A stretch of 53,791 nucleotides of DNA from Clostridia bacterium (GTDB taxonomy: Bacteria; Bacillota; Clostridia; RUG12999). The stretch is taken from assembly GCA_017467445.1 (NCBI GenBank), contig JAFTSG010000009.1:1-53791 (forward strand), given 5' to 3'. The notes beneath the pieces are model-generated. The model made no database searches, was not told where the DNA came from, and saw only the letters and a program-made list of their open reading frames with translations. Of the stretch, positions 27,068 through 29,419 are shown one piece after another. Numbering within the stretch: the first letter of the stretch is position 1; each line of letters starts with the position of its first letter. The translations under genes were made by a program, and so were the position numbers.

Positions 27068-27082
27068 TTCTCACTCTTTTTT
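27052..27082. terminator. Bidirectional terminator, DMT transporter / cysK
   Basis: 12-bp stem AAAGAGTGAGAA (27052-27063) and TTCTCACTCTTT (27068-27079), flanked by A and T runs. It includes the transporter stop codon and abuts the cysK stop. Confidence 0.9.
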
Positions 27083-28001
27083 ACTTAAACATATCTGTAG
27101 ATAAATAATGTTCGCCGGTATCGGGAAGAAGTGCAACAACTTTTTTGCCTTGCATTTCTTCTCGCCCGGCAATTTCTGCAGCGGCAAAAACAGCTGCACC
27201 GGAAGAAATTCCAACCAAAATTCCTTCGGTTTTTGAAATTTTATTTCCTGTTAAAATTGCATCGTCACCTTTAACGGTTATAATTTCATCATAAACGGTT
27301 TTATCAAGAATATCAGGCACAAAGTTAGCTCCTATACCCTGAATTTTGTGCGGACCGGCAACTCCCGTTGTGATAAGGGGAGATTCAAATGGTTCAACAC
27401 CTATAATTCTGATGTCGGGATTTTTTTCTTTTAAATATTTTCCCACGCCTGAAAGAGTACCACCCGTGCCTATGCACGCAACAAAAACGTCAATTTCGCC
27501 GTTTGTATCACGCCATATTTCAGGTCCGGTTGTTTCATAATGCGCCTGCGGATTTGCTGGATTTTCAAACTGTCCGGGGATAAATCCGGAAAGCTCTTTT
27601 GCAAGTTCATTTGCCTTCGCAACGGCGCCGTTCATACCAAGAGAGCCGTCTGTCAGCACAACCTCTGCTCCGTAAGCTTTTATAAGGTTTATTCTTTCGA
27701 TGCTCATTGTATCGGGCATTGTAAGAATAACGCGGTATCCTTTTGATACACCAACGCACGCAAGACCGATTCCGGTGTTACCGCTTGTCGGTTCAATTAT
27801 AACACTGCCGGGTTTTAAAAGCCCCTTTTTTTCAGCTTCAAGTATCATATAATGTGCAACTCTGTCCTTTGCACTGCCTGCCGGATTGAAAAGCTCAAGC
27901 TTTGCAATTATTTCGCTTTTAATATTTTCGGTCGCACAGTAGTTTTTAAGGCTTAAAAGGGGAGTATTCCCGATAAGTTCAGTTACATTATTATATATCA
28001 T
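27081..28001 (-). CDS. cysK: Cysteine synthase (O-acetylserine sulfhydrylase)
   Basis: PLP enzyme making cysteine from O-acetylserine and sulfide. 306 residues. The PLP lysine is in PAGSAKDRVAHYMI; substrate loop EPTSGNTGIGLA; phosphate-binding GTGGTLSGVGKYL; C-terminal GISSGAAVFAA and LPDTGEHYLSTDMF. GVEP and the IQGIGANFVP segment match CysK rather than threonine synthase. AAGGAG lies 5 bases from the ATG. It follows the hisD-like gene after 9 bases, so the two are cotranscribed. Confidence 0.95.
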   Translation of the reverse strand: MIYNNVTELIGNTPLLSLKNYCATENIKSEIIAKLELFNPAGSAKDRVAHYMILEAEKKGLLKPGSVIIEPTSGNTGIGLACVGVSKGYRVILTMPDTMSIERINLIKAYGAEVVLTDGSLGMNGAVAKANELAKELSGFIPGQFENPANPQAHYETTGPEIWRDTNGEIDVFVACIGTGGTLSGVGKYLKEKNPDIRIIGVEPFESPLITTGVAGPHKIQGIGANFVPDILDKTVYDEIITVKGDDAILTGNKISKTEGILVGISSGAAVFAAAEIAGREEMQGKKVVALLPDTGEHYLSTDMFK

Positions 28002-28010
28002 TATATCTCC

Positions 28011-29303
28011 TTACTTTCTATCTTTAACAGCAAGAGCGTGCGCATCAAAACCTTCAACGGTTGCAAACAGTGCGGCATTTTCTCTTACCATTTCAAAACC
28101 TTCTTTGGAAGCATATCCTATGGAAGAACGTTTAAGGAAATCGAATACGGATACGCTTGAATATGTTTTTGCAAATTGACCTGTAGGAAGAATAGCATTC
28201 GGTCCAAGCAGGAAATTGCAAAGTGTAATAGGTGTATAATCGCCAAGCAGAATTTCGCCTGCGTTTTTGATTTTAGGAAGAACAGTAAAAGGTTCTTTAA
28301 CCATTACTTCCATATGTTCGGGAGCATAATCGTTAACAAAATCAATAGACTCGTCAAGATTTTCTGTAATGATTACGCCGCCGTATGTAGAAAAGTTTGT
28401 TTTAATAAATTCACGTCTTTTATCGCTTAATTTTTCAAGCTGACGCTCAACAATCGGAAGCACCTTTTCAACAAGCTCTTTGCAATGTGTTACCAAAAGA
28501 GCCGCAGAATCGGGACCGTGTTCAGCTTCAATCATCCAGTCAAGAGCCACTTTTTCGGGGTCTGCGTTTTCATCTGCAAGAATAATGGATTCACTCGGTC
28601 CTGCCGGAAGTCCTGTATCAATATAGTTTGCAAGAACTCGCTTAGCGGCAGTTGCATATGCATTTCCCGGTCCGATAATCTTGTGACATTTTGGAACAGT
28701 TTCAGTACCGTATGCAACAGCGGCAACAGCCTGAATTCCGCCAACTTTATATATTTCTTTTATTCCTACAATTTTAGCTGCGGCAAGAATTGCATCGTCA
28801 ACATCGCCTTTTTCATTCGGCGGTGTAACAACAACAATTTTCGGTACGCCTGCAACAACTGCGGGAATTCCAAGCATTAAAAGAACGGACGGGAAACTTC
28901 CTTTTCCGCGGGGAACATAAAGACAAACGTCAACAATAGGGGTTGTTTTTTCGCCAACCATAAGTCCTTTGTCAACTTCTGTAAACCACATTTCTTCCGG
29001 AAGTTGTTTTTCGTGGAAGTTTTTAATGTTTTTTGCGGCATATTCAATCGCACCGCGTACTTTCGGATCAAGACGGTTGTAACCGTCTTCAATTTCCTGC
29101 TCGGTAACTTTGATTTTATTTTGTGCCAAAGTTACTTTATCATACATAGCGGTATATTTTACAAGCGCTACATCTCCGTTTGCTTTAACATCATCAGACA
29201 CTTCTTTTGCAAGTATCATATGAGATGTAATGTCGGTTTCAGCTCTTTTCATAATTTTGCTTTTTTCTTCAGCTGTCATTTCGTTAAGATTAAAGATATT
29301 CAT
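28011..29303 (-). CDS. HisD-family NAD-dependent dehydrogenase with altered active site
   Basis: 430 residues, colinear with histidinol dehydrogenase (GLPAGPSESIILADENADPE, EAEHGPDSAALL, YAPEHMEV). By motif alignment with the E. coli enzyme, the catalytic pair E326/H327 is present (E329-H330 here), as are zinc ligands H262 (H262) and H419 (H422). However ligand Q259 is Glu, D360 is Asn (N363 in LCNFLLGPNAILPTG) and the substrate-binding H367 is Ala (A370). The usual motif is GDYxxGxNHxLPT. Cotranscription is with cysK, with no his gene nearby, so a substrate other than histidinol is likely. A true hisD cannot be excluded. AAAGGAG precedes the ATG. Confidence 0.85.
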   Translation of the reverse strand: MNIFNLNEMTAEEKSKIMKRAETDITSHMILAKEVSDDVKANGDVALVKYTAMYDKVTLAQNKIKVTEQEIEDGYNRLDPKVRGAIEYAAKNIKNFHEKQLPEEMWFTEVDKGLMVGEKTTPIVDVCLYVPRGKGSFPSVLLMLGIPAVVAGVPKIVVVTPPNEKGDVDDAILAAAKIVGIKEIYKVGGIQAVAAVAYGTETVPKCHKIIGPGNAYATAAKRVLANYIDTGLPAGPSESIILADENADPEKVALDWMIEAEHGPDSAALLVTHCKELVEKVLPIVERQLEKLSDKRREFIKTNFSTYGGVIITENLDESIDFVNDYAPEHMEVMVKEPFTVLPKIKNAGEILLGDYTPITLCNFLLGPNAILPTGQFAKTYSSVSVFDFLKRSSIGYASKEGFEMVRENAALFATVEGFDAHALAVKDRK

Positions 29304-29336: not shown

Positions 29337-29365
29337 ATTATACTACAAATTTTACATAAGTGCAA
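29337..29365 (-). promoter_or_regulatory. Promoter of hisD-like/cysK unit
   Basis: Minus strand -35 TTGCAC (complement of 29360-29365), 17-bp spacer, -10 TATAAT (complement of 29337-29342). Confidence 0.8.
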
Positions 29366-29372
29366 TAATTTT

Positions 29373-29407
29373 GACAAAAAAATATGCACGGACTTTCGCC
29401 CGTGCAT
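29373..29407 (-). terminator. Terminator after carB
   Basis: ATGCACGG/CCGTGCAT stem (29384-29391 and 29400-29407) with 8-base loop; on the minus strand it is followed by a run of seven Ts. It separates carB from the hisD-like/cysK unit. Confidence 0.9.
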
Positions 29408-29419
29408 AGTGTGTTAAAA

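Follow-up and report, generated by a model that had tools for sequence, protein, structure and literature searches.

Introduction

Accounts of histidine biosynthesis usually present a single conserved route. The locus studied here raises the question of what a dehydrogenase of the HisD family does when two of its four zinc ligands are replaced, and whether such a protein belongs to histidine biosynthesis at all. The window, i.e. the whole stretch of DNA that was analysed (53,791 nucleotides), makes up the whole of contig C3 in the genome of a Clostridia bacterium (1.05 Mb, 61% complete). The variant protein is called HisD' here and its gene hisD'. An earlier note, made from the letters of the window, had drawn attention to the replaced residues and to the cysK gene beside hisD'.

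The hisD' gene and its surroundings

The open reading frame of hisD' encodes 430 amino acids followed by a stop and lies on the minus strand; the same interval read on the plus strand in frame 1 contains stops and gives no open frame. The product scored above the cut-offs of both HisD profiles, with 466.9 bits against TIGR00069 (cut-off 243.8) and 492.8 bits against PF00815 (cut-off 27), and it shares the fold of L-histidinol dehydrogenase (HisD, EC 1.1.1.23; 1KAE and 5VLD), which gave the best Foldseek matches. A terminator-like hairpin and a promoter-like match stand between hisD' and the upstream carB (Table 1); the scan found 4 terminator-like sites in the stretch against 3.0 expected, and 10 promoter-like matches against 5.5 expected.

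The gap between hisD' and cysK given in the earlier note was found again in the list of open reading frames, and its statement that the window holds no other his gene also stood. The remaining his genes found in this genome are located on two further contigs: C2 carries hisZ-hisG-hisH-hisA-hisF-hisIE as one operon, each product being over its NCBIfam equivalog cut-off and HisH thus confirmed by profile, and C5 carries a divergent hisB (hisB') adjacent to the gene of a HAD-type hydrolase (HAD).

Table 1. Positions of the genes, codons and signal-like sites in the window
Feature	Position	Strand	Basis
hisD' (HisD-family dehydrogenase, variant clade)	28011..29303	-	ORF; PF00815; TIGR00069
Codon E259 (Q259 in E. 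coli HisD, zinc ligand)	28527..28529	-	E in 82/82 HisD' rows
Codon H262 (zinc ligand, kept)	28518..28520	-	alignment with E. coli HisD
Codons E329-H330 (catalytic E326-H327, kept)	28314..28319	-	82/82 HisD' rows
Codon N363 (D360, zinc ligand, replaced)	28215..28217	-	N in 82/82 HisD' rows
Codon A370 (H367, replaced)	28194..28196	-	A in 82/82 HisD' rows
Codon E417 (E414, binds imidazole ring in HisD; kept)	28053..28055	-	82/82 rows; role as described in excerpts of PMC5585171
Codon H422 (H419, zinc ligand from other subunit, kept)	28038..28040	-	alignment
cysK	27081..28001	-	ORF; TIGR01139 over cut-off; 9 bases downstream of hisD'
Intrinsic-terminator-like hairpin, between carB and hisD'	29383..29408	-	11 pairs, T tail
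Promoter-like match upstream of hisD', TTGTCA-17-TAAAAT	29349..29377	-	consensus match only

Active site residues of HisD'

Alignment with E. coli HisD confirmed the residues read in the earlier note, in which E259, N363 and A370 of the window protein replace Q259, D360 and H367, with H262, E326-H327 and H419 retained along with E414. The comparison was extended to 82 HisD' rows, comprising the window protein, that of genome G081 and the best 80 of 109 confirmed loci. Positions 258/259/359/360/367 were found to be I/E/C/N/A in all 82 rows, whereas the canonical clostridial HisDs have S/Q/G/D/H at the same positions (12 of 12 compared); HisD' therefore differs from HisD by S258I, Q259E, G359C, D360N and H367A, and in 81 of the 82 rows also by Y361F. 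Out of the zinc ligand set Q259, H262, D360 and H419, two of four are replaced in every row. Further, positions 134-138 are GKGSF in HisD' and GSAPL in E. coli HisD.

The changes at the zinc ligands amount to a swap: an amide takes the place of the carboxylate at 360 and a carboxylate that of the amide at 259, which leaves a ligand set of two His, one Asp/Glu and one Asn/Gln. HisD' may thus keep its metal site with the carboxylate and amide ligands exchanged. The residue changes recur in every one of the 82 rows and are thus more than chance; the likely reason that they are fixed is another alcohol substrate or another mode of metal binding, as the earlier note had proposed. In the AlphaFold model the active site loops 114-119, 232-236 and 368-395 fall below pLDDT 50, and hence no ligand geometry is argued from it.

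Clade and carrier genomes

A tree of 20 variant and 15 canonical HisD rows, in which E. coli is a long row, set the HisD' rows apart as one clade; the branch between them and the canonical rows has 100/99 support, and the stem measures 2.14 changes per site. A search of 99 genomes taken as relatives, the own one included, gave a HisD match in 84. In 18 genomes the match was of the variant type, with 67-100% identity, and in the other 66 it was canonical, at 45% or less. The 18 variant genomes have exactly one HisD match apiece, and HisD' as a paralogue beside a canonical HisD is therefore rejected for them. The full genome of the window (61% complete) likewise holds a single HisD, and the second, canonical hisD for which the earlier note had suggested looking was not found in it. 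Four genome families (f1, f11, f18 and f28) contain variant and canonical types alike, and the gene set switches as a whole within them, which argues against a mere lineage effect.

The named carriers behind the best 80 of 109 confirmed loci belong to the Clostridia or to other Bacillota. Metagenome-assembled genomes (MAGs) make up most of them; the carriers also include the isolates or strains Ructibacterium gallinarum DSM 107454 and Lachnospiraceae bacterium MD329 as well as the complete genome of Candidatus Formimonas warabiya DCMF. The host group is made up mostly of gut-dwelling, uncultured Clostridia. In 25 of these named genomes PF00815 detected one HisD copy in 23, two in Firmicutes bacterium ADurb.Bin193, and three plus a fragment in Formimonas. 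Both HisDs of the ADurb.Bin193 MAG are of the variant type, and they lie in two separate hisD'-hisB'-HAD-fumarase-type clusters (L221:8030-9421 and L222:8335-9618); this doubled cluster may be a duplication or a contamination.

State of the histidine pathway in the variant genomes

The early part of the pathway is found in nearly all of the variant genomes. The hisG gene is present in 17 of the 18, being missing in G006, and HisA and HisF were both detected by profile in 16, with one strong match in G015 and none in G006 (both 85% complete). A first look at the open reading frames of the operons had suggested a loss of HisH and HisF; against it stand the profile matches of HisA and HisF in these 16 genomes and that of HisH in the window's own genome. 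In some loci (L216:5600-7279, L057, L062 and L066) the hisZ and hisG products seem to be joined in a single protein of about 550 amino acids.

The late part of the pathway differs between the two genome types. Among the 18 variant genomes HisC was over the cut-off in G088 alone, compared with 62 of the 66 canonical ones (Fisher 4e-13), and at E <= 1e-60 in 2 of 18 against 65 of 66; HisC is thus missing from the his gene set of most variant genomes. IGPD (HisB) occurs once in each of the 18 variant genomes with 101-137 bits; of the 66 canonical-HisD genomes 64 have it, and the scores there are 194-236 bits. All 18 variant genomes have the HAD, against 3 of the 66 canonical ones (Fisher 1.4e-15) and none of the 15 genomes without HisD. 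Moreover, general class I aminotransferases are present in all 18 variant genomes, and two aminotransferase clusters, which contain 28 of the 30 loci fetched from these genomes, could be the source of the last step to histidine.

HisD' in the variant genomes very probably belongs to histidine biosynthesis, in which it is the sole HisD alongside upstream his genes and, in difference from HisD, is paired with HisB' and HAD, with HisC mostly absent. It is very probable that the late histidine genes of this group have been replaced by another three-gene set. The earlier note had held that its reading of another function would fall if this were the only hisD of a histidine prototroph, and at the level of genes the first part of that description applies, with one HisD in 18 of 18 genomes and hisG in 17 of 18. 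A decayed pathway, whose late genes are remnants in histidine auxotrophs, would account for the missing HisC; we consider it highly improbable, as the active site letters are fixed over 82 rows, the mean column identity is 84% in 35 rows, the adjacency of hisD' and hisB' is kept in 79 of the best 80 of 109 loci, and hisG (17 of 18) and hisA with hisF (16 of 18) persist in the variant genomes.

Neighbours of hisD' in other genomes

In the 79 of the best 80 of 109 loci where hisB' follows hisD', it does so within 700 bases in 76. A HAD gene follows in 64 of the best 80 of 109 loci and is not adjacent in 16, a count in which contigs that stop near the operon are taken as misses; HAD genes elsewhere in the genome were searched in the 99 relatives. 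A gene of fumarase C-terminal type follows in 57 of the best 80 of 109 loci. Where it stands after the HAD gene (e.g. L037:6470-7015), it encodes a C-terminal-domain, beta-subunit-like protein, with the alpha-subunit gene elsewhere in the genome. A search with 31 aminotransferase queries gave zero matches beside hisD' in the best 80 of 109 loci.

The cysK gene follows hisD' in one of the best 80 of 109 loci (L072, from the window's own genus), against 79 for hisB', and a cysK link of hisD' is rejected on this count. The cysK neighbour is a local accident, peculiar to the genus and outside the conserved module. Hence, of the two expectations that the earlier note had attached to the LGPNAxLPTG group, the separate clade was borne out and the conserved cysK neighbours were not, and the serine or sulfur link that it had suggested for the enzyme is not supported.

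The partner proteins HisB' and HAD

HisB' is above the cut-off of PF00475 and stays below the cut-off of each of the 13 NCBIfam HisB equivalogs listed. It was compared with the metal and phosphate contacts of Arabidopsis IGPD2, as given in excerpts of PMC4509728 and in the numbering of that enzyme, over 97 HisB' rows, in which some genomes occur twice. HisB' retains H47, H73, E77, D108, R121, H170 and E173, and H169 was read by eye as H in the HisB' rows printed. The Mn-ligand set of IGPD (H47, H74, H169, E173 and H73, E77, H145, H170) is incomplete in HisB': H74 is V/L/I in 97 of 97 rows, and position 145 is T/V/A where canonical rows have H or E and the canonical clostridial rows E (the 14 canonical rows include 4 to 5 that are incomplete and show gaps at 145-177). 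The phosphate-binding set of IGPD, consisting of R99, K177, H55 and the S199/K201 C-loop, is replaced, with R99 changed to G or S, H55 to R and K177 to R, each in 97 of 97 rows, and the PSTKG-type C-loop changed to a TSGVAG-like one in the rows printed. The acid-base residues and most metal residues of HisB' thus stay, and the greater part of its phosphate site is rebuilt.

The HAD retains its catalytic motif residues D13, D15, K249, D287 and D291 in all 32 rows, and its structure model is confident (pLDDT 94.4). The closest structure found is the uncharacterised S. aureus Q8NW41 (1QYI), which shares its large-cap fold and aligns over 329 residues with Z 35.1, rmsd 3.0 and 30% identity.

The Candidatus Formimonas cluster

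The complete genome of Formimonas has a his operon with a fused hisZ-hisG and a canonical hisB. Its hisD'-hisB' pair lies outside this operon, in a run of twelve co-directional genes with short gaps (L151:222-14058) that encode an SDR, an ADH, a second HisD-like protein, an ABC ATPase, a permease, a periplasmic binding protein, a second divergent HisB-like protein, HisD', HisB', a LarA homologue, GlcD and GlcF. This import cluster looks catabolic, and neither a kinase nor a phosphatase was found within the twelve genes, which fits a dehydrogenase and dehydratase pair acting on unphosphorylated substrates. The second HisD-family protein of the cluster (L151:2125-3387) has Lys at the Gln259 zinc-ligand position and retains D360 and H367. 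As canonical hisB is also present, Formimonas is uninformative on the route in the variant genomes.

This cluster, with canonical hisB in the his operon, and the cysK gene adjoining hisD' in the window are the points that favour HisD' being a catabolic or sulfur-linked dehydrogenase unrelated to histidine. Such a role is very unlikely, since HisD' is the one HisD in all 18 variant genomes, hisG is present in 17 of these, and the cysK neighbour is rare in the best 80 of 109 loci.

Proposed route and its alternatives

From the observed co-occurrence of these genes, their linkage and their residue changes, we infer a late route from imidazoleglycerol phosphate (IGP) over imidazoleglycerol, imidazoleglycerate and imidazolepyruvate to histidine, to which we give about even chances. 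HAD would strip the phosphate from IGP to give imidazoleglycerol, whose primary alcohol HisD' would oxidise to the acid, imidazoleglycerate, in two NAD-dependent steps. HisB' would then remove water from this 2,3-dihydroxy acid, with the imidazole activating the elimination as usual, to give imidazolepyruvate, and a general aminotransferase would convert imidazolepyruvate to L-histidine, bypassing HisC. The textbook reaction types would thus run in another order on unphosphorylated intermediates, making HisC superfluous. No such late histidine route was found in the literature searched, from which subscription papers were mostly left out.

Several observations count for the proposed route: the joint switch of HisD', HisB', HAD and HisC loss in the 18 variant genomes, the hisD'-hisB'-HAD linkage without an aminotransferase in the best 80 of 109 loci, the replaced phosphate contacts of HisB' with its acid-base residues kept, the position of the hisD'-hisB' pair in the Formimonas cluster, and the intact catalytic motifs of HAD. 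The oxidation assigned to HisD' has a precedent in HpsN (DHPS-3-dehydrogenase; 8V35, 9CP7), a member of the HisD superfamily that carries out the four-electron conversion of a diol to a 2-hydroxy acid, the chemistry proposed for HisD'. According to excerpts of PMC11382572, HpsN oxidises the CH(OH)-CH2OH group of R-DHPS to the acid and places the 2-hydroxyl at zinc, where histidinol has its amino group. In Medicago HisD, the amino and imidazole nitrogens of histidinol bind zinc and the ring is held by Glu455 (E414), as described in excerpts of PMC5585171. IGP is the 2R,3S isomer (excerpts of PMC4509728), and by the CIP rules worked by hand its 2R carbon is arranged in space like C2 of L-histidinol. 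The HpsN precedent and this configuration make the oxidation proposed for HisD' plausible. The Cupriavidus HpsN entries have 27-28% identity to the HisD' model. On the other hand, HisD' is distinct from HpsN itself: the GRY(A/S)H motif, in which His126 binds the sulfonate according to excerpts of PMC11382572, is GKGSF at the aligned positions of the window protein, and the zinc ligands are Gln, His, Asp, His in HpsN and E, H, N, H in HisD'.

Other observations count against the proposed route. HpsN handles a 2-hydroxyl with Q and D, so that the change from NH2 to OH alone leaves E259 and N363 unexplained, and HisB' lacks one Mn ligand per metal (H74 and position 145). HisC-like proteins are over the cut-off in G088 and in Formimonas, which has five. 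HAD homologues occur in three canonical-HisD genomes, and the HAD gene is not adjacent in 16 of the best 80 of 109 loci. HisJ (PHP-type histidinol-phosphatase, TIGR01856) homologues at E <= 1e-10 are left in 11 of the 18 variant genomes, compared with 62 of the 66 canonical ones. Regulatory signals of the histidine pathway also count against it, with no Rfam match, T-box included, in the 8 hisD' loci searched, and HisR boxes overall not above shuffled sequence (mean best score 15.06 in the 80 upstream regions of the best 80 of 109 loci, 14.76 shuffled). As separate observations, the three canonical genomes with HAD homologues are G003, G007 and G054, the gene standing beside unrelated genes in G054, and among the 80 upstream regions the only convincing site close to the HisR consensus, TGCTTTATCGTAGTAAAGTG, lies 101 bases upstream of hisD' in L135.

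The main rival to the proposed route is the textbook order with a replaced aminotransferase and phosphatase, in which HisB' acts on IGP, an aminotransferase other than HisC forms histidinol phosphate, HAD serves as histidinol-phosphatase and a re-tuned zinc site lets HisD' oxidise histidinol. It offers a candidate gene for every standard activity, with class I aminotransferases in 18 of 18 variant genomes; R121, which is kept, and the arginines gained at 55 and 177 of HisB' could still hold the phosphate; and HisN is the step most often missed by annotation according to excerpts of the GapMind paper (PMC7311316). This order is possible and in our view doubtful, as it leaves unexplained the joint change of HisC, HisB, phosphatase and HisD, the absence of R99 and the PSTKG loop from HisB', the fixed E/N/A residues of HisD', and the Formimonas cluster without a phosphatase. 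An order in which dephosphorylation comes first and HisD' still oxidises histidinol is unlikely. Here HAD would form imidazoleglycerol, HisB' would dehydrate it to imidazole acetol and an aminotransferase would give histidinol, which accounts for the lost phosphate contacts of HisB' and the dropped HisC but leaves the HisD' substitutions unexplained. It also needs a general aminotransferase on an unphosphorylated ketol, a less usual substrate for such an enzyme than a 2-keto acid.

The proposed route through imidazoleglycerate would be a second biochemical way from IGP to histidine, probably recruited from a catabolic module of diol oxidation and dehydration of the kind still seen in Formimonas, and we regard the arguments for and against this reading as evenly poised.

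Implications

Replacement of HisB, HisC, HisD and the phosphatase as a linked set in many clostridial genomes would change the prediction of histidine prototrophy in gut microbes. The variant genomes would otherwise be called auxotrophs, since HisC is missing, or be mis-annotated with a canonical HisB and HisD. HisD' may represent a natural HisD in which two oxygen ligands of the zinc have been exchanged. If the proposed order of reactions is true, it would add new intermediates to a textbook pathway.
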